The position numbers and the translations under genes were made by a program. A DNA stretch of 10,440 nt, from contig CAMWQZ010000015.1 in assembly GCA_947176515.1 (NCBI GenBank), positions 1 through 10,440 on the forward strand, read 5' to 3'. Shown here piece after piece: positions 1-10,406 of the stretch; within the stretch, counting starts at the first letter, position 1; each line of letters begins with the position of its first letter. This stretch comes from an uncultured Bacteroidales bacterium (GTDB lineage: Bacteria > Bacteroidota > Bacteroidia > Bacteroidales > Muribaculaceae). The notes below the pieces were generated by a model. That model was not told the DNA's origin. It ran no database searches and worked only from the letters and a program-made list of their open reading frames with translations.

Positions 1-953
1 CCGCTGTTGTATCAGTTAAGGTTATGGAGCCTCAGTTTGAAGGCCAGACCAAAACCAAACTCGGCAACTCGGAGGTAATCGGCGCCGTGCAGACAGCTGT
101 CAGCGAGGCTCTCCGCAATTATCTCGAAGAAAATCCCCGTCAGGCTCGCACGATTGTCGACAAAGTGATACTCGCCGCCCAGGCCCGTCACGCCGCAAAC
201 AACGCTCGCAAACAAGTGCAGCGCAAGTCTCCGCTTTCAGGCGGCGGTCTCCCCGGCAAACTCGCCGACTGCTCTTCGCGCACGGCTGAGAACTGCGAAA
301 TCTTCATTGTCGAAGGTGACTCGGCAGGCGGAACTGCAAAGCAAGGCCGTGACCGTACATTCCAGGCCATCCTGCCGCTTAGAGGTAAAATCCTCAACGT
401 CGAAAAGGCGATGGAGCACAAAATCCTCGACAACGAAGAAATCTCGAACCTCTTCCGCGCCCTCCGCGTGACTATCGGCACAGAGGAAGACCCCAAGGAA
501 GCCAACCTCAGCAAGCTCGCCTATCATAAGATTATAATCATGACCGATGCCGATGTCGACGGTGCTCACATCGCGACACTCCTTATGACCTTCTTCTTCC
601 GCCGTATGCGCCCGATTATCGAGAACGGCTATCTCTATCTCGCCACTCCGCCGCTCTACAAATGCAAGCGCGGCAAGGCCGAGGAATATTGCTGGACCGA
701 CCAACAAGTGCAGCGCTTCATCGACGAACACGGCAAGGCTACGACCGTGCAGCGTTACAAAGGACTTGGTGAGATGAGCGCAGCCGAGCTCCGAGACACC
801 ACAATGTCGCCCGAAGGCCGCATGCTCAAACAGGTCAACATCAGTGACGCAGCCGAGGCTGACCGCATATTCTCGATGTTGATGGGCGAAGACGTTGGTC
901 CGCGCCGCGACTTCATCGAGGCCAACGCAAGCTACGCTAATATCGACGCATAA
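1..953 (+). CDS. gyrB: DNA gyrase subunit B, C-terminal part (5' end outside the window)
   Basis: This is the ATP-hydrolysing subunit of DNA gyrase, which with GyrA introduces negative supercoils. Only about the last 317 codons are present. The frame is open from base 3, and the residues before the first ATG (AVVSVKV) read straight into the conserved block PQFEGQTKTKLGNSEV, so the ATG at 24 is internal. The TOPRIM domain is complete. Its catalytic glutamate lies in EGDSAGGTAKQGRD (Glu codon at 312) and the metal-binding aspartates in DADVDGAHI (Asp codons at 546, 552 and 558). The GyrA-contacting tail carries QRYKGLGEMS and ends in YANIDA. There is no long insert between DADVDG and QRYKGLGE, unlike the E. 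coli protein. QRYKGLGEM and the AxYANID ending support GyrB rather than ParE. A strong terminator follows. No damage is seen. Confidence 0.98.
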   Translation, partial: AVVSVKVMEPQFEGQTKTKLGNSEVIGAVQTAVSEALRNYLEENPRQARTIVDKVILAAQARHAANNARKQVQRKSPLSGGGLPGKLADCSSRTAENCEIFIVEGDSAGGTAKQGRDRTFQAILPLRGKILNVEKAMEHKILDNEEISNLFRALRVTIGTEEDPKEANLSKLAYHKIIIMTDADVDGAHIATLLMTFFFRRMRPIIENGYLYLATPPLYKCKRGKAEEYCWTDQQVQRFIDEHGKATTVQRYKGLGEMSAAELRDTTMSPEGRMLKQVNISDAAEADRIFSMLMGEDVGPRRDFIEANASYANIDA

Positions 954-974
954 AGCAACACGACATGAAATATG

Positions 975-1016
975 TAACGGTCCGCAACAAAATCAACGTG
1001 CGGGCCGTTATTTTAT
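975..1016 (+). terminator. Rho-independent terminator after gyrB
   Basis: A hairpin forms between AACGGTCCGC (976-985) and GCGGGCCGTT (1000-1009). It gives ten pairs with one G-U wobble, and T975-A1010 extends it by one more. The loop is 14 bases and a T-rich run, TTTTAT, follows at 1011-1016. It lies 22 bases past the gyrB stop and separates gyrB from rnr. Confidence 0.85.
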
Positions 1017-1089
1017 ATATACATAACTAATAATAACATTGTCGACCGACCATCAGTCAGTCGCAACATTCATCATAACGACCAAAACT

Positions 1090-3375
1090 ATGGCAAAATC
1101 AAGTAAAAAAGATAGTAATGCAAAGCGGTTGAAAGAGGCCGTCGAAACATATGTAAGCTGTCAGGAAGGCGGTACTTTTAATTATAAACAGGTTTCTGCC
1201 GCCGTCGGCGCGGTGACTCCAGCTCAGCAGAGAGCCGTGGCACTCAAGCTTGCCGAACTTGCTTTTGACGGAGTCTTGGTCGAAGTCGCACCCGGCAAGT
1301 ACAAGACCCCGAAACGCTCGGTAGTCACTACCGGCGTGTTTGTCCGCCGCTCTAACGGCAAAAACAGCGTCCTTCTTGACGATGACAACGAACCGGTTTT
1401 CGTTGCCGAGCGCAATTCTATGCATGCGCTCAACGGTGACCGCGTGTCAGTGAGCATCGCAGCCAACGTCCCCGGCAAAGAGCCTGAAGCCGAAGTGCTC
1501 GAAATCATCGAGAAGAAAGACCAGACTTTCATCGGCACACTACGCGTCGACCGTCACTATGCATATCTGCTTACCGACTCTAAATTCCTTGCCACAGACA
1601 TTCTTATTCCCAAAGCAAAACTTAAAGGTGGCGTTACCGGCGACAAGGCTGTCGTAAAAATCATTGACTGGCCCGACGACGCTAAAAATCCAGTTGGCGA
1701 AGTCATCGACATACTTGGCAAAACCGGCGAGAATAACGCCGAAATGCACTCTATCCTCGCTGAGTTTGGCCTACCATACCGCTACCCCGAGGCAGTTGAG
1801 AAGGCCGCAGCCAAGATTGACGCCGGCATCACTGACGAAGTCGTTGCTGAGCGTGAGGACATGCGCGGCATAACCACCTTCACCATCGACCCCAAGGATG
1901 CAAAAGACTTTGACGATGCGCTCTCAATCAGAAAACTCCCTAACGGACACTATGAAGTAGGAGTGCATATTGCCGACGTTACCCACTACGTAAAACCCGA
2001 CACTATCATCGACCGCGAGGCTCAGGACCGCGCTACGTCGGTGTATCTCGTTGACCGCGTCGTGCCGATGCTGCCCGAGCATCTCAGCAACGGCATCTGC
2101 TCGCTGCGTCCTGACGAGGACAAACTAACGTTCTCTGTGATTTTCGAAATGGACGAGAATGCCAAGGTCATCAAGTCGCGCATCGCCCGTACAGTGACGC
2201 GAAGCGTGCGCCGCTTCACTTATGAGGAGGCCCAGGAGGTAATCGAAACCGGCAAGGGCGACTTTGCAGAAGAAATTCTTACGCTTGACACTTTAGCAAA
2301 ACAACTTCGCGAGCGCCGCTATGAGAACGGCTCGGTAGAGTTTGACCGCGCGGAGGTGAGATTTGATATTGATGAAAACGGCCATCCGACAGGCGTATAT
2401 TTCAAAGAGTCGAAAGACGCCAACAAGCTTATCGAAGAGTTTATGCTGCTTGCCAACAAAACCGTGGCAACTGTTATCGGCATGACCGGCGACAAGCGCA
2501 AAAAGCCAAAGGCATTTGTATATCGCGTTCATGATATGCCCGACCAGGAAAAGCTGGTCAACCTCACCGCGCTCGCTAAAAACTTCGGTTTCAAAATCAA
2601 GCCGACCGGCTCACCTAAAGAAGTCAATAAGTCAATCAACAAGATGCTCGCCGGCGTCAAGGGCCGTGGAGAAGAAAACTTCCTGTCGACACTCGCAATC
2701 CGCTCAATGGCAAAGGCTGTCTACACCACCGAGAACATCGGTCACTACGGCTTAGGCTTTGACTATTACACTCACTTTACGTCGCCGATCCGCCGCTATC
2801 CTGACATGATGGTTCACCGTCTGCTCGACCGTTATCTCAATGGTGGCCGCAGCGTCAATGTTGAGAAACTTGAAGAAGAGTGCAAGCACTCATCAAATAT
2901 GGAACAGCTCGCCGCCAACGCTGAGCGCGCATCAATCAAATTCAAACAGGTCGAATTCATGGGTGACCACCTCGGCGAGGTCTACGACGGTGTAATCTCA
3001 GGCGTCACCGAATGGGGACTGTATGTCGAGTTGGACGAAAACAAGTGTGAAGGCCTCGTGCCCGTCCGCGACCTTGCAGATGACTATTACGACTACGACG
3101 AAAAAAATTATTGCCTCGTCGGCCGTCGCAATGGCAACCGCTACCGCCTTGGCGACAAAGTTAAGGTACAGGTCGCGCGCGCTAACCTCGATAAAAAGCA
3201 GCTCGACTTCGTGCTTGTCGACGAGAAAAATCCACCTCGCTCGCTCGATAACCTCGCGGCTCCAGCGATTTCTGAAGTGATGCGCTCATCTGGCAAAGCG
3301 AACAAGTCGAAACACCAGTCGCGCAGCAAGTCAGGCAAATCGACTAAAAAAGGCAAATCGTCACGCCGCAAATAA
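1090..3375 (+). CDS. rnr: Ribonuclease R, 3'-5' exoribonuclease of the RNase II/RNB family
   Basis: RNase R degrades RNA, including structured RNA, processively from the 3' end in the cytoplasm, and acts in mRNA decay and rRNA quality control. Numbering from the ATG at 1090 gives 761 residues, a usual length. The order is a lysine-rich start with a winged-helix-like segment, cold-shock/OB domains (about 75-230), the RNB catalytic domain (about 255-600), an S1 domain (about 630-710) and a basic Ser/Lys/Arg tail. The active-site block ITTFTIDPKDAKDFDDALS supplies Asp267, Asp273, Asp275 and Asp276, equivalent to the metal-binding aspartates of E. coli RNase R. The frame is also open from a TTG at 1039, but those 17 extra residues do not look like family sequence, and the ATG start MAKSSKKD gives a normal N-terminus. 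A weak -7-like TAACATTG at 1034-1041 would put the transcript start downstream of that TTG. folB follows after nine bases. Confidence 0.97.
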   Translation: MAKSSKKDSNAKRLKEAVETYVSCQEGGTFNYKQVSAAVGAVTPAQQRAVALKLAELAFDGVLVEVAPGKYKTPKRSVVTTGVFVRRSNGKNSVLLDDDNEPVFVAERNSMHALNGDRVSVSIAANVPGKEPEAEVLEIIEKKDQTFIGTLRVDRHYAYLLTDSKFLATDILIPKAKLKGGVTGDKAVVKIIDWPDDAKNPVGEVIDILGKTGENNAEMHSILAEFGLPYRYPEAVEKAAAKIDAGITDEVVAEREDMRGITTFTIDPKDAKDFDDALSIRKLPNGHYEVGVHIADVTHYVKPDTIIDREAQDRATSVYLVDRVVPMLPEHLSNGICSLRPDEDKLTFSVIFEMDENAKVIKSRIARTVTRSVRRFTYEEAQEVIETGKGDFAEEILTLDTLAKQLRERRYENGSVEFDRAEVRFDIDENGHPTGVYFKESKDANKLIEEFMLLANKTVATVIGMTGDKRKKPKAFVYRVHDMPDQEKLVNLTALAKNFGFKIKPTGSPKEVNKSINKMLAGVKGRGEENFLSTLAIRSMAKAVYTTENIGHYGLGFDYYTHFTSPIRRYPDMMVHRLLDRYLNGGRSVNVEKLEEECKHSSNMEQLAANAERASIKFKQVEFMGDHLGEVYDGVISGVTEWGLYVELDENKCEGLVPVRDLADDYYDYDEKNYCLVGRRNGNRYRLGDKVKVQVARANLDKKQLDFVLVDEKNPPRSLDNLAAPAISEVMRSSGKANKSKHQSRSKSGKSTKKGKSSRRK

Positions 3376-3384
3376 ATCCAGGCG

Positions 3385-3741
3385 ATGAAAGCAACCATAG
3401 AGATTGAGGGTCTGCGTGTGTGGGCTCGCCACGGTGTGTTCAGCCAAGAGCGCACCGTCGGCAATCTTTTTGAAGTGTCGCTGTCGCTCGTCTATCCGCC
3501 GGCACTGAAAGCCGTGAAGACAGACTGCGTAGACGATACGCTCAATTATGCTCAGGCGGTTGAGATTGTGAAATGCGTGATGTCAGAGCCCTCGGCTCTC
3601 TTAGAGCATGTGGCAGGGCGCATCCACGCAGCCCTGACCGCAGCATACCCCGAAATAGAATCAGGCCGCATCAAGGTAACCAAACTCGCACCCCCCGTCT
3701 CTGCCGAACTCACCGCCGCCCACTTCACCCTCGAATTTTAA
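3385..3741 (+). CDS. folB: Dihydroneopterin aldolase
   Basis: FolB converts 7,8-dihydroneopterin to 6-hydroxymethyl-7,8-dihydropterin and glycolaldehyde in folate synthesis, acting in the cytoplasm as a ring-shaped oligomer. At 118 aa it has the usual length. The N-terminal block GLRVWARHGVFSQERTVGN carries Glu22. LNYAQ carries the conserved Tyr55. LLEHVAGRI carries the pterin-anchoring Glu74, and TKLAPP carries the catalytic Lys100. The numbering of Glu22, Glu74 and Lys100 matches the well-studied Staphylococcus aureus enzyme. The start lies nine bases after the rnr stop with no terminator between, so the two genes are probably cotranscribed. This is the last gene of the housekeeping block: immediately after it composition drops and gene direction reverses. 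Confidence 0.95.
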   Translation: MKATIEIEGLRVWARHGVFSQERTVGNLFEVSLSLVYPPALKAVKTDCVDDTLNYAQAVEIVKCVMSEPSALLEHVAGRIHAALTAAYPEIESGRIKVTKLAPPVSAELTAAHFTLEF

Positions 3742-3798
3742 ACCAAATTTTCCAAAATGTAGACAACTGATGATTTCATGATACATAGCTTTTAGGAG

Positions 3799-3843
3799 AA
3801 AAACCACAAATGTTTACTCTTAGTTATCAATCAAACATTTATG
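3799..3843 (-). terminator. Probable rho-independent terminator of the minus-strand receiver operon
   Basis: On the minus strand, CATAAATGTTT (3843-3833) can pair with AAACATTTGTG (3815-3805). This is an eleven-pair, AT-rich stem with one G-U wobble. It is followed by G and then five T (minus-strand reading of 3803-3799). The stem starts directly after the stop codon at 3844-3846. On the plus strand the wobble becomes a C-A mismatch and no T run follows, so it is better suited to ending the minus-strand transcript than that of folB. Confidence 0.55.
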
Positions 3844-4848
3844 TTAATCACTAATAATTGAACGGTCATGCATATAAGTGTAATACCACTTCATGACAGC
3901 AAAAAAAGCGCAATAAGTTGCGTTCAGCACATTACGATTATAATATGCTCCATAATAGCTATCAGAATGTTTAGTGATAAAATGACTATTATGATTGGTC
4001 ATATCGCCCAGGAATTTTATTAAATATTTTGTTTCTTGGTTACAAATATCAAACGATACATAAGGATTATTGAAATCGGGTTTAGGCTTGCCGTCACGGT
4101 CTTTTACAATAGCGCCATTTGCATCTTTAAGATAGTAACATGATTCACAAAGATAACGTATACGCTGATTAAACGAATTTTTACTATCGGCATTAATCTT
4201 AATTATACCGATGTCATTAAGTTTTTGAAGCATATTTTCTAAAACCTTTCTCATACGGTTGTATGGGTCATAGAAAAGCGATGATTCAGAAAATCCCTTA
4301 ACGATTTCATCCATAACAGCCTTTTGCTCAGAGTCAAGGAAGCCTTCGTTGAATAAGTTATGACACTCTTCATGCCCGACGTAAAAATGGTATGATGAAT
4401 CAAAATCCGAAAGCATCTTGGTGATAAGATTTCTCACCAGTTCTCCTTTGTCAAAGGCTCTCCCGGATTCTACAATATGTCGTATAGTCATTTCAAACTT
4501 TCCCAAATCGGTATTTGCGGAATACACATACATCGGCACAGGTTTAATCTGATTGACTAATTCTATAGCATCGGCCACGACGTAGTCGCTTGCTTCTTTT
4601 CCTGCAGAATTGGCCATGCCACGCAAATCAAATACTACGCCTTGGTACAGATTGGGATTTCTTTTAAATTCCTCAGCGAATTCTTCGTAAGTGGGCACTC
4701 CTTTGACACCGATGCCACTTTCCTCAACTTTATGAACATCTCTTAAGAAACCACTTGCAGCTCTACGATAATTCTCATTGATATCGTTATTATCCTTGGG
4801 GATTGGGATAAAGTAATCATCAAGCCATAAAACGTTGTATATCATCAT
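3844..4848 (-). CDS. Receiver-domain protein with an unrecognised C-terminal domain
   Basis: A 334-aa soluble protein. The N-terminal part (about 1-140) reads as a phosphoacceptor receiver domain with the full set of key residues: acidic pair Asp10/Asp11 (VLWLDDY), candidate phosphoacceptor Asp74 (VVFDLRG), switch Ser110 (YVYSA) and Lys134 (FDKGE). It is longer than a classical CheY domain, with an insertion after the first strand. The C-terminal part (about 185-334) is no DNA-binding output domain that I recognise. It is helical and rich in aromatics. A stretch starting RKVLENMLQKL (200-210) and a later GDMTNHNSHF (281-290) loosely recall HEPN/DUF4145-type all-helical domains, but this is a weak resemblance. 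The gene begins two bases after the stop of the kinase-like gene (ATG at 4848 or 4845), so translation is probably coupled and the two are likely partners. I infer phosphorylation-controlled activity and cannot name the output. Confidence 0.85.
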   Translation of the reverse strand: MMIYNVLWLDDYFIPIPKDNNDINENYRRAASGFLRDVHKVEESGIGVKGVPTYEEFAEEFKRNPNLYQGVVFDLRGMANSAGKEASDYVVADAIELVNQIKPVPMYVYSANTDLGKFEMTIRHIVESGRAFDKGELVRNLITKMLSDFDSSYHFYVGHEECHNLFNEGFLDSEQKAVMDEIVKGFSESSLFYDPYNRMRKVLENMLQKLNDIGIIKINADSKNSFNQRIRYLCESCYYLKDANGAIVKDRDGKPKPDFNNPYVSFDICNQETKYLIKFLGDMTNHNSHFITKHSDSYYGAYYNRNVLNATYCAFFAVMKWYYTYMHDRSIISD

Positions 4849-4850
4849 AA

Positions 4851-5777
4851 CTATTTCTTGATAAAAAGTTTGTATACCACCAATCCATTCTCAGAAAGGA
4901 ATTGGGCATCTCCACCGATTTCCTTCATGGCATTCCTAATGGAAAACATACCTTTCCCCTCATTGCCGGATTTTCCGCTCGTGTAGCCGTAATCGAAAAT
5001 TTGTTTAGAATCGCCCTTGAATTGGGTGCCATTGTTCTGAATAGACACCACAAGGAAATCTTTTTCCTCTGCATCCACGGAAACAACAACTTTCTTCTCG
5101 GTAATCAGTTTTTTCTTTTGTTCTGTTGCGCTAAAAGCGTGACGCTCAATATTTGACCGAATATTAAGAAGAACCTCATTTAAGAACTTATCCCCGTCAA
5201 TATTAACGTAGTATTGAGACATAAGGAACTCATTGACATACGATACAATTGCTACAGGAGTTTTGTCAAGACCCTTTTGAATAATTTCGAGCAGATTCAC
5301 TTTGGTGCAAGTGATATTTCCACTATTCACATCATGTTCAAGAGATTGGAGCGCAATACAGATTGATAGGTAGTCATTACGGCTGTCTTGAATGAGATTA
5401 TAGGTGTCGTTATTCGCCAGTGGTTGCTTAAAATATTGCGTATTATTATAACAAGTGTCGTAAAAGGGGATGATGACGTTCTTGATCTTGGGGATAATAT
5501 CATCAAGCGTTTTTTTGATATTACCTCTAAGAGATGCCAACTTCTTTTCCTCAGAGTCTTCTTCCGAATCATACCATTTCCTCGAAAAGAAACTCATTAT
5601 TGAAGTAGCAGTCTTGTGCACTTCGTTTATATTTACCCTATGTTCAAGAATAAATTCTTTTGTTACCTGCCCATCGTTGAGTATCGAATCAATCGGGTCC
5701 AGCACCGCCAAACGGAGCCGCATCTTAACATTGTGTTTGTTTGCGCCAATGTCCTTTATAAGTTCTGCTGATGTCAT
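4851..5777 (-). CDS. GHKL-type ATPase, cytosolic sensor histidine kinase-like protein
   Basis: A 308-aa protein without membrane segments. The C-terminal 120 residues match a HATPase_c domain. The N box FLNEVLLNIRSNIERHAF contains Asn205 and Asn209 in canonical spacing. The G1 region is SIQNNGTQF (245-253), with Asn248 where most histidine kinases have Asp. The F/G2 region is FDYGYTSGKSGNEGKGMFSI (261-280), and IRNAMKEIGG follows as in kinases. The segment TKVNLLEIIQKGL (158-170) sits where kinases join the dimerisation helices to the ATPase domain. The N-terminal 150 residues are helical. No standard H box is obvious: His15 (NKHNVK) and His55 (EVHKTATS) are only candidates. It probably phosphorylates or otherwise controls the receiver protein encoded two bases downstream. 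It starts 12 bases after the Gly/Ala-rich membrane protein gene, so the three form one operon. A non-phosphorylating GHKL role remains possible. Confidence 0.85.
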   Translation of the reverse strand: MTSAELIKDIGANKHNVKMRLRLAVLDPIDSILNDGQVTKEFILEHRVNINEVHKTATSIMSFFSRKWYDSEEDSEEKKLASLRGNIKKTLDDIIPKIKNVIIPFYDTCYNNTQYFKQPLANNDTYNLIQDSRNDYLSICIALQSLEHDVNSGNITCTKVNLLEIIQKGLDKTPVAIVSYVNEFLMSQYYVNIDGDKFLNEVLLNIRSNIERHAFSATEQKKKLITEKKVVVSVDAEEKDFLVVSIQNNGTQFKGDSKQIFDYGYTSGKSGNEGKGMFSIRNAMKEIGGDAQFLSENGLVVYKLFIKK

Positions 5778-5789
5778 AGAATTGTGGTA

Positions 5790-6680
5790 TTACAAGTTTG
5801 CAGATTCTCTTGAAAGCTTACCTAATGTTTTAGCCTTATCAACGATATCAAAGAGGAGCTCCTGATTATACGCAGAACAATTATAATCACGCGTATTTTC
5901 AGTAATATTGCTATTGTCTATAAACTTCTGAAGCGGGGTTATCAGGCGCTTGGTCTCCGTAGAAATCTGTTTTACACGCTGACGAGCCTTCTCTAATTTA
6001 TAGACTTCTTTATCTATTTTCTTACATTCAGCCTCTAACGCTTCGATGGTTTTCTTGTTTTTCGAGCCTTTAGTAAGAGAGACACCAAGAAAGGAAATTG
6101 CACTCACACCAGCTATGCCCCACCCAATAGGGCCCAAGAGACTAATCAATGCAGTCCCACCGGCAATACCCGATCCTCCAGCTGCAAGAGTTCCACCTCC
6201 TAACCATGCAAGTGCCGCATTAGTGGCAGCAGCCCCACCAAGCGCAGAAATAGCAGTACCAGTGCTTGCAGTACCAAAGGTGGTGGCAACTGCAATTGCA
6301 GCCGTAGACCCCCCAACAGCGACGGCTCCACCAACAGTAGCAGTTCCTAACAATACTCCGTTTTGAGTCTCTATATTGTATTCTCTTCGGATAGATTTGT
6401 CCTTATCTACGGCAGTTTTAATAACAGAAACCAAGGACATTGCAGTGGTAATCCCATTAATAATTGAATTGGGACAATGGGCAAGATTTTTAACGTAGGC
6501 ATTCAGACCGCTTATCAATTGATAGGATCTTTCGCGAAGATTAAAAAGGGCAACGGCATCGTTAGTCGCAGATTCTACTAAATTAAGAAAGGCTTCTCTC
6601 TTTTTTTCGTATGTCGCAGCGACTTGTTTTAAATCCTCTCCGTGATTGAGTGGATTGATTATTTTTGAAAATATACTCAT
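5790..6680 (-). CDS. Gly/Ala-rich putative membrane-inserting protein with flanking helical arms
   Basis: A 296-aa protein of unknown function with a striking three-part layout. Residues 13-65 are charged and helix-forming. Residues 108-202 form one long Gly/Ala/Thr/Ser-rich hydrophobic stretch with many small-xxx-small steps (VGGAVAVGGS, LGGAAATNAALAWLGGG, LLGPIGWGIAG). Residues 206-255 are a lysine/glutamate-rich predicted coiled coil, followed by a short C-terminal tail. There is no signal peptide. A soluble helical protein that can expose a hydrophobic hairpin is a layout seen in alpha-helical pore-forming proteins, so a membrane-active effector or a stress-responsive membrane sensor is plausible; this is inference. 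The block GAAATNAALAWLGGG recalls uncharacterised bacterial proteins I have seen, without a known function. It is the first gene of a three-gene operon with the kinase-like and receiver genes. A promoter candidate lies directly upstream. MSIFSKIINP is taken as the start because no other ATG is near. Confidence 0.85.
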   Translation of the reverse strand: MSIFSKIINPLNHGEDLKQVAATYEKKREAFLNLVESATNDAVALFNLRERSYQLISGLNAYVKNLAHCPNSIINGITTAMSLVSVIKTAVDKDKSIRREYNIETQNGVLLGTATVGGAVAVGGSTAAIAVATTFGTASTGTAISALGGAAATNAALAWLGGGTLAAGGSGIAGGTALISLLGPIGWGIAGVSAISFLGVSLTKGSKNKKTIEALEAECKKIDKEVYKLEKARQRVKQISTETKRLITPLQKFIDNSNITENTRDYNCSAYNQELLFDIVDKAKTLGKLSRESANL

Positions 6681-6684
6681 GGTG

Positions 6685-6716
6685 CAAATCTACTAAATTT
6701 TGTGGATATAGGCAAT
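6685..6716 (-). promoter_or_regulatory. Bacteroidetes-type promoter candidate for the three-gene receiver operon
   Basis: On the minus strand TAGATTTG (6692-6685) fits the Bacteroidetes -7 consensus TAnnTTTG exactly. Twenty bases upstream lies ATTG (6716-6713), close to the -33 TTTG element, and the consensus spacing is about 19-21. Only four bases (CACC) separate the -7 box from the ATG at 6680, so the transcript would begin at or next to the start codon. Confidence 0.5.
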
Positions 6717-6746
6717 TTTGAGCCTATCTTGAATGTCTTGGCTGAT

Positions 6747-7082
6747 TTATAATTTAAAGAAGCCTAACTCATTACGGATTTTTTCCACACTAACCACATC
6801 AATGTCTTTAGGTTGATTACGGATAATAGTCATCAGTTCACTGGTTGAGATTGTTTGAATCAACTTCAAAGAATCTTGATTTCTCAGAAAGATGTTGAAG
6901 CTATTATCGAGTTCATCGAAAATAATTTCAACCCGACCTTTGAACTTGTTTCCCTCTAATTTGAAACTGATACCATGTTCTATATTACAAAGTGTAGTGG
7001 CATCAATTCTCCATGATGCAGTAGCTTCGTGGCCGCTAAGGATTAATTGCCAAATATTTAATTAATTGTGGTCTTGGATCAT
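6747..7082 (-). pseudogene. Small hypothetical reading frame interrupted by an early stop codon
   Basis: On the minus strand an ATG at 7082, 21 bases after the peptidase stop, opens a frame that reads MIQDHN and hits TAA at 7064-7062. The same frame then continues for 104 codons to TAA at 6749-6747. The downstream translation looks like real protein: it starts LNIWQLILSGHEATASWRID, then KLEGNKFKGRVEIIFDE in the middle, and ends VEKIRNELGFFKL. No ATG, GTG or TTG occurs in frame between the stop and 6870, so a full-length product has no ordinary start. The simplest reading is a gene inactivated by a nonsense change or by slippage in the repetitive AATTAATTAA at the stop. A non-standard start such as the ATT at 7055, or a sequencing error, is possible. 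I do not recognise the family. Placement at the end of the peptidase operon suggests it was once its last gene. Confidence 0.5.
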
Positions 7083-7103
7083 AATGTAAATAAGCTTAAA
7101 AAT

Positions 7104-7895
7104 TTAACAAACTCTTATACGGGATTGACGGTAACGACACGACTTACTCCAGCGGTCAACCTCGTAGGCCCGTTCGCAAAGTTGAGGATGCGACTGAAAT
7201 GCCACTTGGCAGTTCTGCTGTATTTTGCCCCACAACGAGCCTTCGATAATGTCGTGATATTCGTAAGCTTGATTGAGCAATTCCTTGCCGTTTGGCTTAA
7301 AAGATTTCATGCCAGAAGCTAATTTGGCAAGAACTTTTTGATATGCCTGTGCGCCAACAATTGAAGTCGCACAACGATCTGCACTCAACTCGCTTCGACG
7401 GCTCCAGTATTGAAGAGCAAGAACAAGGGGGCCAAAAAGCATATACGGAATACCCTTAAATGAGTCGGCAAGTTCAACGAGTGAATAAAGCAACGTATTG
7501 TAGAACGTGTGGTGGCAAACGATGTGTCCACACTCATGTGCCAATACACCTTTCAGCTCATCTGGAGATAGAGTCTCGACCGCGCCGCTTGAAATAGCAA
7601 TGAATGTACGGGTCTCGCCATAGGTATATGCATTGATGTAAGGGTCGTTATAAACATACAATTCCGGTTCATCAATGCCAAGCGCTGTTACTGTCTCCTT
7701 GAATACTCGGTAAAGTGCGGGAAAGTTATCTTCGTAGACCTTCACATGATTGGCAAGATTTTGTCCGCGATAGAGACTTTCCCCACCATACTCCATATAC
7801 TTGCGTACAAGATAATTGAATCCCGGAATTTTTTTAAGCGCAAGTATTGCTTTAGCATCTGCTGGATGCATAAACCGGTTGTTCGGTATTCTCAT
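7104..7895 (-). CDS. M48-family zinc metallopeptidase (HtpX/Ste24-like)
   Basis: A 263-aa protein counted from the ATG at 7895. It has the gluzincin signature HECGH with zinc ligands His120 and His124 and catalytic Glu121. The third ligand is Glu169 in SELSADR, the usual M48 ExxxD arrangement. Upstream, PDELKGVLAHECGH matches the active-site helix of HtpX-like enzymes. A hydrophobic stretch (about 148-163, IPYMLFGPLVLALQYW) between the two motifs may be membrane-embedded or buried. There are no N-terminal transmembrane helices, unlike HtpX. The frame is open up to an ATG at 7943, but that overlaps the upstream gene by 52 bases. The ATG at 7895 gives an ATGA overlap with the upstream stop, typical of coupled translation; an ATG at 7901 is a close alternative. 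The substrate is unknown. Coupling to the YaaW-like gene suggests a shared role, perhaps in membrane-protein quality control or in activating a partner by cleavage. Confidence 0.92.
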   Translation of the reverse strand: MRIPNNRFMHPADAKAILALKKIPGFNYLVRKYMEYGGESLYRGQNLANHVKVYEDNFPALYRVFKETVTALGIDEPELYVYNDPYINAYTYGETRTFIAISSGAVETLSPDELKGVLAHECGHIVCHHTFYNTLLYSLVELADSFKGIPYMLFGPLVLALQYWSRRSELSADRCATSIVGAQAYQKVLAKLASGMKSFKPNGKELLNQAYEYHDIIEGSLWGKIQQNCQVAFQSHPQLCERAYEVDRWSKSCRYRQSRIRVC

Positions 7896-8638
7896 ACGCA
7901 TTGGGCAGTAAGAAAGTGAGAATTGTGTTTCAGGCGCATACAAGCGACTTGAATTACGGCAGGAACGGTAACGCGATATGCCGGCGAGGCGATGTCAAAA
8001 GCCAACCATCCGGCGGTTAATGCCCAACCGATGGGTCCGGCAAGTGCCGCGGCAGCGCGTCCCAGGACTCCTGCTGTAGCAAGATATACACCACGACCAA
8101 TGAGGATACGGGAGATATTAGAGCCGATATAATAGATTACAGGAGCAAGAACTTTTCCGCCACCTCTGCGAAGTGCAACAAGGATCGCAGCGGCTACAAT
8201 TTGTTTATTGTAACTCTGCGGCTTGATACCAATTTCAACAGATAGTTCGTGGAGCAGATCAATATCCATACTACCGATGGTTTCCTCGCAGTATTTTGTA
8301 AGGAGAGCAATTTCGATTTCCTCTACTGTTGAGCACGAGGGTATTCTAACCTTCATCTTCTTGCATACATCGCGCAGGATGCTTTCATAGCTTGCGCCAA
8401 CGCCGCCACGGAATATATTGGCAAAGGTGTTACCTCCAAAACGTTGCAGTTCAGCCGCAATCTCTTGCCACATACCTTTCATATTATCGGGATAGCAACG
8501 AAGATATACATCGTTGTCAGTAAGCTGTTCGCTTAGGCGAACCTCCCCTTTATTATCGTGAGTAAGCGTGTCGCAGAGTGTTTTCAGCTCATCGTTAGAG
8601 CAGTACTGAAGGAATGATAGGTTGGAATCAACAATCAT
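7892..8638 (-). CDS. YaaW/UPF0174 family protein
   Basis: A 248-aa protein recognisable as a homologue of E. coli YaaW (UPF0174; some annotation calls it ubiquinol-cytochrome c chaperone-like). Shared blocks recalled from YaaW are SFLQYCSNDEL and THDNKGEVRLSEQL near the N-terminus (the DUF3944-type segment), WQEIAAELQRFGGNTFAN (57-74), and PAYRVTVPAVIQVACMR near the C-terminus. Between them lies a Gly/Ala-rich hydrophobic region (about 183-216) with AALAGPIGWALTAGWLAFD, likely membrane-associated. The biological role of the family is not established. The start at 8638 is chosen because the family N-terminus begins there; the open frame extends to 8746 but the extra 36 residues are unlike the family and overlap the preceding small ORF. 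It starts 17 bases after that ORF and its stop overlaps the peptidase start (ATGA). Confidence 0.9.
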   Translation of the reverse strand: MIVDSNLSFLQYCSNDELKTLCDTLTHDNKGEVRLSEQLTDNDVYLRCYPDNMKGMWQEIAAELQRFGGNTFANIFRGGVGASYESILRDVCKKMKVRIPSCSTVEEIEIALLTKYCEETIGSMDIDLLHELSVEIGIKPQSYNKQIVAAAILVALRRGGGKVLAPVIYYIGSNISRILIGRGVYLATAGVLGRAAAALAGPIGWALTAGWLAFDIASPAYRVTVPAVIQVACMRLKHNSHFLTAQCV

Positions 8639-8655: not shown

Positions 8656-8877
8656 TTAGACAATTGATGAAAGCGCTATTTCTGTGGAGAGCGCAGTTAC
8701 TCCAGCCTTGACGGTAAATTTGAGTTGATGGCGACGAGAGATGCAAGGCGTGAATAGCAAATTCCCAGACTCATCGCAGTAGTGGCGTTTGATGTAATCG
8801 TTCTGTAAGCGATTATAACTTTCTGAGAATATCTTAGCCATACGTTTGACAGCGAAAAATGGCGAACAGATAATCAT
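8656..8877 (-). CDS. Small hypothetical protein, 73 aa
   Basis: The ATG at 8877 overlaps the TGA stop of the 381-aa gene in an ATGA arrangement, and the frame ends at TAA 17 bases before the YaaW-like start. It therefore fills an otherwise unexplained 235-base gap between two operon genes. The product begins MIICSPFFAVKRMAKIF, has a polar middle with YNRLQNDYIKRHYCDESGN, and ends STEIALSSIV. I recognise no motif. An internal ATG at 8841 (MAKIFSES) would give 61 aa. The same frame is open upstream to about 9030, but that stretch lies inside the 381-aa gene and is probably shadow. The ATGA overlap and exact fit to the gap support a real gene; the lack of recognisable homology keeps confidence moderate. 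Confidence 0.55.
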   Translation of the reverse strand: MIICSPFFAVKRMAKIFSESYNRLQNDYIKRHYCDESGNLLFTPCISRRHQLKFTVKAGVTALSTEIALSSIV

Positions 8878-10019
8878 GCGCAAATAGTTTTGACTGAACA
8901 AATCAATTTCTTGGTGCCAATTGAGGCTCCCATACCTCCGGCAATACCTCCGATAATGCCTCCGATAGCTGTACCAACACCGGGACAAATCAGACTCCCG
9001 ATAGCTGCCCCTGCTGAAGCTCCAGCCCAACCACCTCCGACACTAGTGACATTGCAAGCTGTGTTTTCGCAAAATTCGGCACCACTAATTTTACCGCGAC
9101 AAAGTTTGACAGCGTCAGGTATCGTTGTAGCTACAGCCATTGCTCCGCTGACTATTACATTAGTTCGAGCAGCCTTGGTCAAAACATTTGCTGCAGCTGC
9201 TCCTGTTATGCTTTTACCCGCAACTGCCGAAGCCGTCTTTGTGATGACAGATTTACCTAATTCTGTCTTCATTGCGGCTTGCATCATCGGACGAACTGCG
9301 TGAGTCGCCGCAGCCGCACAACTTCTCCCTGCTGCCGTGCGAAGGAATTGCTGGGCCACCACACCACCGAGCATTGCAACGCCTGCTGACTTTACACCTG
9401 ACACAGCAGCTTTTTTAAGAGCATCTCCAGTTGATTCACCATTGCATTTGGCTATGATGAAAGTGATGCCGGCAGAGATTCCACAAGCGAATGCGCAAGC
9501 AGCCGCCTGAACGCGCATATCGAACTTAATCGAGTCGAGATTCCCGGCTTTAGCCATATTCTTTGCCTGTACATAGGTATAACGACCTTTGACAACAATA
9601 TCGGTAGCCTGATTTGGGTCGCTTATTCCGGGAACCTTTCCATCGCTGATGGCTTGGCGCATACGTTGTACAATTTCAGAGTATTGGTCTGAGGGGACTT
9701 CAAACTTCTGCCCGGCATATCGGAACTGACCTGTAGTGGAGTCAAATCCAGACGAGAAAGTGCGAGTAGCCGTCCGATAGCATTTCGTTTGTATGGGTTG
9801 CCCGTTAACAATGCGGTCAGCACCGTTCACTTCATTGCTTCTACCGCATTGATCTACTACACGTCCACACTGACGGTCATGGATGGCGTGAGCATCTTCC
9901 ATGGCAAAACCATGACCGCCTTTAGTGTGGTACTTGAGCCATTGAGTCTTAGACTCAATCTGATTGGTTGAGGCCATAGATGAGATGCCAGAGGTTGCGC
10001 GAGTTGAGTTCTCTTCCAT
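8874..10019 (-). CDS. Two-part protein: conserved N-terminal domain with nuclease-like motif plus glycine-zipper membrane tail
   Basis: A 381-aa protein from the ATG at 10019. The frame also opens at a TTG at 10046, which adds MFNLLIPVT and is less likely. The N-terminal half (about 1-165) holds strongly conserved-looking blocks: HTKGGHGFAMEDA (31-43), NGADRIVNGQPIQTKCY (65-81), YAGQKFEVPSDQY and YTYVQAKNMAKAGN. I recall similar blocks in a widespread uncharacterised family, from memory and not from a search. Asp68 followed by Gln77-x-Lys79, with Glu41 upstream, fits the spacing of a PD-(D/E)XK-type nuclease in its QxK variant, a hypothesis only. From about 170 to the end the protein is Ala/Gly-rich and hydrophobic. 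It finishes in a glycine zipper (about 328-370: GGGWAGASAGAAIG, GVGTAIGGIIGGIAGGMGAS) suited to membrane insertion or oligomerisation. It is second in the operon, 36 bases after the zinc-knuckle protein, and overlaps the next small ORF by ATGA. Confidence 0.9.
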   Translation of the reverse strand: MEENSTRATSGISSMASTNQIESKTQWLKYHTKGGHGFAMEDAHAIHDRQCGRVVDQCGRSNEVNGADRIVNGQPIQTKCYRTATRTFSSGFDSTTGQFRYAGQKFEVPSDQYSEIVQRMRQAISDGKVPGISDPNQATDIVVKGRYTYVQAKNMAKAGNLDSIKFDMRVQAAACAFACGISAGITFIIAKCNGESTGDALKKAAVSGVKSAGVAMLGGVVAQQFLRTAAGRSCAAAATHAVRPMMQAAMKTELGKSVITKTASAVAGKSITGAAAANVLTKAARTNVIVSGAMAVATTIPDAVKLCRGKISGAEFCENTACNVTSVGGGWAGASAGAAIGSLICPGVGTAIGGIIGGIAGGMGASIGTKKLICSVKTICA

Positions 10020-10055
10020 AGTAACTGGGATTAGGAGATTAAACAAAATAGAGAA

Positions 10056-10406
10056 TTAGTGTTTGTGACCGACATGATAGTTGCCGCAGGTGCGACATTT
10101 ATATGGACGCATGATGGTCTTATGGAGAATAGCATCTTTCACTACCTGAAAGTTAGCACGTTGCGATGACTTATATCCGACTTTTGGATTATCGAATTTG
10201 TTAAAGTGAGCGCGAGGACAATCCATACCGACGGAAGGATTATTGAATACAACGTATGCGGCTGTTGCTGCAGCAACGGTAACTACAGTCCCCACTACCA
10301 CCTTACCAGTGGTTACGATTACTTTAGTAGCCTTCGGGTGCTTCTCTTTGAAGTTAGAGAAGAAACCTTTCTTCGTTTTATCGGAGGTGTTTGCGGATTT
10401 TTCCAT
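10056..10406 (-). CDS. Small single-pass membrane protein with C-terminal zinc-knuckle-like motif
   Basis: A 116-aa protein. The first 27 residues are lysine-rich (KTKKGFFSNFKEKHPKATK) and lead into one hydrophobic segment at about 28-54 (VIVTTGKVVVGTVVTVAAAT), probably a single transmembrane helix with the basic end in the cytoplasm. The C-terminal part contains Cys63 and ends in PYKCRTCGNYHVGHKH, where Cys104, Cys107, His111 and His114 or His116 could bind zinc. Short proteins ending in such a YxCxxCGxxHxGH motif are common and mostly uncharacterised. It is the first gene of the operon, behind a -7-like promoter box and an A/T-rich leader typical of Bacteroidetes translation starts. The next gene starts 36 bases after its stop. 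Function unknown. Confidence 0.82.
   Translation of the reverse strand: MEKSANTSDKTKKGFFSNFKEKHPKATKVIVTTGKVVVGTVVTVAAATAAYVVFNNPSVGMDCPRAHFNKFDNPKVGYKSSQRANFQVVKDAILHKTIMRPYKCRTCGNYHVGHKH

Follow-up and report, generated by a model that had tools for sequence, protein, structure and literature searches.

A candidate phosphorelay module with a Gly/Ala-rich membrane-type protein in a probably mobile, defence-type cassette of Bacteroidota

Detocs is a two-component defence system that uses a soluble kinase and a receiver-linked protein. A comparable pairing is encoded on a 10,440-base contig of an uncultured Bacteroidales bacterium of the Muribaculaceae (CAMWQZ010000015.1; hereafter the window, meaning this whole stretch of DNA), where three adjoining genes, which we call A, B and C, specify a Gly/Ala-rich membrane-type protein, a histidine-kinase-like ATPase and a receiver joined to a second domain. 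The likeness to Detocs, a soluble kinase with a receiver-linked protein that has no recognised DNA-binding domain, is one of analogy only. JukA, whose family also has a member in the window, is described in a review as a sensor that works with diverse effectors or acts alone (PMC13282480). Receiver domains or two-component genes also occur within the defence operons of type I-B CoCoNuT and NxD McrBC systems (PMC11090510). Our preferred reading of the window, to which we give just short of an even chance, is that A-B-C serves as the phosphorelay part of a cassette that is mobile and probably anti-phage, and that it controls a membrane effector.

Results

Recurrence, co-divergence and exchange of A-B-C

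Gene A (5790..6680, 296 aa), gene B (4851..5777, 308 aa) and gene C (3844..4848, 334 aa) all lie on the minus strand, separated by spacers of 12 and 2 bases; their coordinates, strand, tight spacing and domain content were confirmed as first described. A scan of one-per-species genome contigs returned 11 relatives of C, and in seven of these loci (L003-L009) A, B and C are adjacent, in the same order and on one strand, which is the recurrence that the original prediction had looked for. Six of the seven contigs are titled as Bacteroidota groups and one belongs to a metagenome-assembled genome (MAG) of Erysipelotrichaceae. With the window, A-B-C loci number only eight; six of the other seven are titled metagenome-assembled, and the seventh, L009, comes from Xylanibacter ruminicola D31d, a named strain. 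The L004 contig measures 4.4 kb, may be misbinned and ends just after C, and L008 ends about 1.1 kb after C.

The three genes diverge in step. Across the eight loci, identities correlate at 0.88 for A-B, 0.85 for A-C and 0.89 for B-C, values reached in 3, 0 and 2 of 5000 permutations, respectively. The closest relative of the window is L003 (titled Porphyromonadaceae; 93% identity over 3.2 kb), with which it shares the gene order prot6-JukA-M48-A-B-C. Between these two loci the proteins JukA, M48 and prot6 share 96%, 95% and 94% identity, whereas A, B and C reach only 48%, 46% and 57%. Because the JukA block is so much better conserved than A-B-C, the triplet seems to have been swapped as a unit, and the simplest reading is a block exchange of A-B-C next to a partner that stayed conserved.

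The cluster is also patchily distributed. C was found in none of the 60 other genomes of a sample of relatives, 36 of which belong to the window's genus. To the left of A-B-C, on the opposite strand, lie genes that we take, from reading their translations, to be gyrB (partial), rnr and folB; GC content is 0.53 across positions 1-3741, compared with 0.37 in C, 0.39 in B and 0.42 in A. Of the 41 genomes sampled from the genus, 40 gave a folB match; in the five same-genus genomes inspected (G010, G018, G817, G001 and G012), the cluster does not lie beside this gene. Patchy occurrence, the GC contrast and folB sites without the cluster together suggest that A-B-C is probably mobile. Plasmid records held no match to A at 0.001 or to C at 0.01, and phage records gave a single partial match to A.

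The three proteins

B appears to be a minimal soluble kinase without a sensor domain. HATPase_c scores 28.8 bits against a cut-off of 26.4, identifying a GHKL catalytic domain, and the protein consists of an N-terminal part with K14-H15 and P28 followed by HATPase_c with its N, G1 and G2 boxes. K14-H15 and P28 are invariant in 14 of 14 aligned B sequences and make up a candidate H-box, from whose motif and invariance we infer that His15 is the phospho-acceptor. The B family profile finds histidine kinases among solved structures (5c93 at the top, 5.3e-8); B as a single sequence retrieved no solved structure at 0.1, and no PADLOC model matches it at E up to 1.

C combines a receiver domain (residues 1-155) with a helical output domain (residues 160-334). 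The receiver has the acidic pair, phospho-Asp, Ser/Thr and Lys expected of such domains, and the phospho-Asp, Asp74 in the window, and the acidic pocket are invariant even across relatives as remote as 16% identity. Among 19 C proteins, no DNA-binding or transcriptional output family scores above cut-off (RHH_9 reaches 0.012 in one), in keeping with the earlier proposal that C does not end in a transcriptional domain. Names offered for C by Pfam, PADLOC, NCBIfam and PHROGs (LPD18 at 0.05, Cas2e at 0.017, GltC at 0.064) were judged to be chance. A comparison of the 19-row C family with solved structures gave 2l69 (7.1e-4), a 'Rossmann 2x3 fold protein', and the response regulator 3luf (0.0077), followed by lower-scoring receivers and unrelated proteins; with the 16 closer rows, no hit was better than 0.08. 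Of the 50 VIA-align rows listed for the C model, all but one fall within residues 1-158, the receiver part, and the exception reaches 181. The motifs N..R..LE and [NQ]xxSH lead us to a tentative suspicion of a HEPN/DUF4145-like output domain, which has no search support. C and B were searched as single sequences (19 and 7 matches, query included) and A as a profile, so the protein-search counts for the three are not comparable.

A is not an undescribed protein; it matches the PADLOC candidate defence family PDC-M09A (PDLC04407) over residues 18-291, with an E-value of 1.2e-65 and a second match at 8.6e-56. The family is large, with 5999 of 8000 scored candidates passing 1e-3 against an eight-sequence profile, and its AATNAALAW..GG columns are invariant across 53 aligned sequences. 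Hydropathy gives the A protein of the window a hydrophobic, uncharged core, and we regard it as a likely membrane effector. By sequence, the family matched no solved structure at 0.1. In the phylum, the PDC-M09A profile matches 10 of 395 genomes, five of these more weakly than 1e-5.

Relatives of A also occur apart from the other two genes. Viral contigs yielded eight of them, none with B or C inside the fetched flanks, and no relative of C; six of the eight adjoin a gene encoding 473-498 aa. In phage NatCom_3357 (L089 3071-5624, PV036416.1), a BnzB-like gene (3.7e-99) is followed by a PDC-M09A gene, both annotated as hypothetical. On viral contig L096 (231-5993), a WYL-like gene, an A-family gene, a 481-aa gene and a gene for an 840-aa prot6-like protein (9.3e-68) stand consecutively, a row that appears to be a related cassette without kinase and receiver. 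Measured against the refuting condition set in the original prediction, that the three families would mostly occur apart, they are separable in part. A is the shared component, reused in several candidate defence pairings and joined in the window to a kinase and a receiver, while the A-B-C branch of C keeps A in all eight loci, the window included.

The surrounding cassette

The original prediction treated A-B-C as a complete operon. The recurrence of WYL, JukA, M48 and prot6 genes beside the triplet shows instead that the cluster comprises more than three genes. All of those seen in the window are on the minus strand. An M48 metallopeptidase gene (7104..7943, a listed open reading frame (ORF) starting from TTG; Peptidase_M48 1.8e-23) overlaps the end of a JukA-family gene (7892..8638, with ATG at 8638 and the listed ORF extending to 8746; PDLC04113 8.8e-56, DUF3944 1.2e-11). 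Next comes prot6 (8874..10046; 390 aa in the ORF list, 381 aa when started at the ATG at 10019; Gly-zipper_Omp at 0.0015, below cut-off), and ahead of it the ORF list has a frame of 116 aa (10056..10406), just beyond which the contig ends. The window is one entire contig of a genome that is 65.7% complete, and the cassette runs off it, the contig end falling inside the cassette.

JukA and M48 genes lie beside A-B-C in four of the seven other loci (L003, L005, L006 and L009) as well as in the window, and prot6 does so in L003, L006, L007, L009 and the window. A WYL gene stands upstream in all seven other loci according to an in-house profile that was built from L004-L009, six of the loci it then matched; Pfam confirms it in L003, L004 and L006, the only three tested. 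In L003, a 152-aa ORF and then the WYL gene lie upstream of prot6; with this layout, and with the window's contig stopping just past its 116-aa ORF, the WYL gene of the window would sit past the contig end. X. ruminicola D31d holds the WYL, A, B, C, prot6, JukA and M48 genes, and the whole cassette could thus be tested in that strain without reconstruction. The background is low: within the window's order, the JukA profile matches just one of 295 genomes, the window's own.

The defence-type setting that had been proposed for the triplet is found in the cassette itself, with JukA, PDC-M09A and WYL members. A pooled PADLOC scan took 30 flanking genes, 20 of them from triplet loci, and named matches singly only for its first member; 11 of the 20 were scored singly and gave PDC-S57 (L003) and two PDC-M13 (L006). 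The two PDC-M13 genes of L006 lie near the cassette at 14255-15003, the first being DUF3990, and upstream of the WYL gene the same locus has a second, weaker match to the M48 profile (3814-5013; 2.6e-13).

Sequence comparisons say less about the individual neighbours. Among solved structures, the sole hit of the JukA protein was a hemagglutinin (7.3e-4) with no significant stretch, which we set aside. The N-terminal stretch of prot6 distantly resembles PDC-M09B (hhalign probability 50%, E 1.6e-4), and its C-terminal stretch is glycine-zipper-like. The prot6 relative of L006 matches PDC-M09B at 1.8e-5 over residues 63-125; that of the window finds no PADLOC match at 0.1, and LeoB at 0.15 is its only hit. 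A conserved NG.DRI.NG..IQTKY-like stretch in its N-terminal part looks, to our eye only, like PD-(D/E)xK nucleases. A prot6-like stretch (33% over 78% of prot6) also occurs in a 650-aa protein of an Oscillospirales phage (L082 7413-9365, PV036458.1), whose gene sits between an endolysin gene and one annotated as a DNA invertase.

The ends of the triplet have features of their own. After gene C, a hairpin with a T run (3795..3848, minus strand; fold -10 kcal/mol, z -1.9) is a weak terminator candidate. Between M48 and A (6681-7103), the last part of another reading frame runs up to its stop codon; the gap is 423 bases in the window and about 70 in L003, too short there for such a frame end, which has the look of a leftover where two modules were joined.

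A sister branch of methylase-kinase fusions

In the four other C loci of the scan (L010-L013), a protein of 671-1023 aa precedes C in place of A-B, and seven further loci of this kind (L041-L047) came from a 393-genome sample of the order, in which eight genomes match C, the window's own included. Above Pfam cut-offs, the 11 sister proteins contain N6_Mtase in eight cases, Methylase_S in seven and HATPase_c in eight; the remaining three match HATPase_c at 8.6e-5, 0.0022 and 0.014. Neither methylase domain passes its cut-off in L041, where N6_Mtase falls just below, or in L046, where Methylase_S scores 0.04, and L042 has Methylase_S and no N6_Mtase. One of the clearest fusions is that of L010 (7408-10008), in which an N6 methylase and a type I specificity domain are joined to the end of a histidine kinase; a C-family receiver follows it. 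A WYL-type gene precedes nine of the 11 sister loci according to the in-house profile, the exceptions being L013 and L042.

In a tree of 18 C proteins, the A-B-C type and the fusion type split on one branch with support 99/98; L044, which is short and badly aligned, was left out, L003 and L008 are not in the alignment, and the C sequences of P0019 and P0020 place them within the A-B-C clade. B aligns with the kinase ends of the sister fusions over residues 74-308 (hhalign 99.2%, E 3.5e-19). These relationships raise the possibility, which we put somewhat below even, of a defence phosphorelay superfamily, here mainly from Bacteroidota, built around a receiver-plus-helical-output protein, with the kinase either fused to methylase and specificity domains or free. 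On that same tentative view, with a like degree of doubt, the free-kinase branch to which the window belongs would carry the membrane effector A and the JukA-M48-prot6 block. If so, the fusion branch could read DNA recognition or modification out as a phosphoryl signal, which raises the question of whether a restriction methylase can report to a histidine kinase.

Discussion

The original prediction was of a new phospho-signalling conflict system. Recurrence, co-divergence and the defence context support it in part; its three-gene extent does not stand, and A is not undescribed. In the reading that we prefer, B, a soluble histidine kinase with no sensor domain, would phosphorylate the receiver of C. 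Phosphorylated C would then use its helical output domain to make protein contacts instead of binding DNA, and would alter the state of A, a Gly/Ala-rich protein predicted to be able to enter the membrane. As the likely effector, A could damage the membrane, arrest growth or bring about abortive infection. The cue would probably come from elsewhere in the cassette, from the JukA-family infection sensor, the M48 peptidase or prot6, and the WYL regulator would control expression of the cassette.

Several observations weigh against this reading. Directly before gene A, the window has a promoter candidate (6685..6715, minus strand) fitting the pattern TTG-N20-TAnnTTTG, the Bacteroidota-type consensus. 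The match lies 4 bases before A in both the window and L003, the only two of the eight loci that have one; none is found within 120 bases before A in the other six, and L003 has three further matches on the other strand, so the candidate is suggestive only. JukA and M48 were not found in L007, whose 12.7-kb contig carries A-B-C and prot6, and eight of the 11 singly scored flank genes had no PADLOC match (counts that come without a background of flanks). Among 393 genomes, in searches limited to a few first-look candidates from each genome, the A profile matches six, three of them weakly (2.4e-5 to 5.5e-4) in long ORFs that may be chance, and the C profile eight; A and C occur together only in the window's own genome, and the system is therefore rare. 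The alignment over residues 74-308 does not place His15 of B on the conserved H-box His of the sister kinases, which is why its acceptor role stays provisional. The G1 box of B reads NNG, with Asn where GHKL kinases usually have Asp. Finally, A could be a sensor instead.

This last point leads to the main rival, which we consider rather unlikely: A would be a membrane-embedded sensor and B-C its relay, with prot6, M48 or JukA as effectors released or activated through C. Such an arrangement would suit a protein that is encoded first, a kinase that lacks a sensor domain, and a peptidase and prot6 among the cassette neighbours; the gene that most A genes on viral contigs adjoin would be a possible effector there. 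The composition of L007, with A-B-C and prot6 and neither JukA nor M48 on its contig, speaks against it, however, as does the different divergence of A-B-C and the JukA block from L003.

A second alternative, quite improbable in our view, is a host envelope-stress operon with no part in defence, whose kinase, regulator, membrane protein and M48 protease would deal with damage to the membrane. HtpX-type M48 peptidases are envelope-quality proteases, and NCBIfam HtpX models do match the M48 protein, below their cut-offs. Patchy presence (C in none of 36 other same-genus genomes), low GC, the JukA and PDC-M09A memberships, the WYL regulators of the relatives and the swapping of modules all argue against it. 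We give little credence to a B-C pair that is no working phosphorelay, with C a scaffold and B an ATPase remodelling A: the Asn of the G1 box and the unconfirmed His15 would suit it, yet a mere scaffold would not need a phospho-site and acidic pocket that stay invariant at such low identity.

Comparison with known systems

Set beside the described systems, the cassette that we favour as a phosphorelay-controlled defence locus shares features with several. Like PDC-M09, it has a PDC-M09A protein, and prot6 in its L006 copy is a distant relative of PDC-M09B; unlike PDC-M09, A is tied here to a kinase and a receiver, and the prot6 of the window lies two genes away from A and lacks a PDC-M09B match. 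The clear JukA-family protein is shared with Juk, although M48 peptidase and A-B-C genes adjoin it instead; the name of JukB, the pore-forming Juk effector, did not appear among the PADLOC matches of seven window proteins, in a library whose content of a JukB model was not checked. To the Detocs proteins DtcA, DtcB and DtcC there was no sequence link in the 2023 PADLOC library (none for B, for C only the Cas2e match), the presence of Detocs models likewise not having been checked. CoCoNuT and McrBC operons differ in gene content, with no McrB-type GTPase among the scanned window proteins. A likeness to Bunzi exists in phage NatCom_3357, where the BnzB-like gene precedes an A-family gene, whereas no Bunzi model was among the matches of the seven window proteins. 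Literature searches, whose scope lacks preprints and most subscription papers, returned nothing on PDC-M09 by name, only unrelated titles for HsdM with histidine kinase, receiver and defence, and only Helicobacter for DUF3944. Two-component logic in defence, JukA as a sensor and A as a catalogued candidate are already known. What we found no description of, within that scope, is their union in one swappable module together with a methylase-kinase sister branch. If our reading is right, this union would give bacteria another route from infection sensing to a membrane effector, by way of a histidine-aspartate phosphorelay, and would connect families that have been catalogued apart, namely PDC-M09A, JukA and the WYL-controlled modules.

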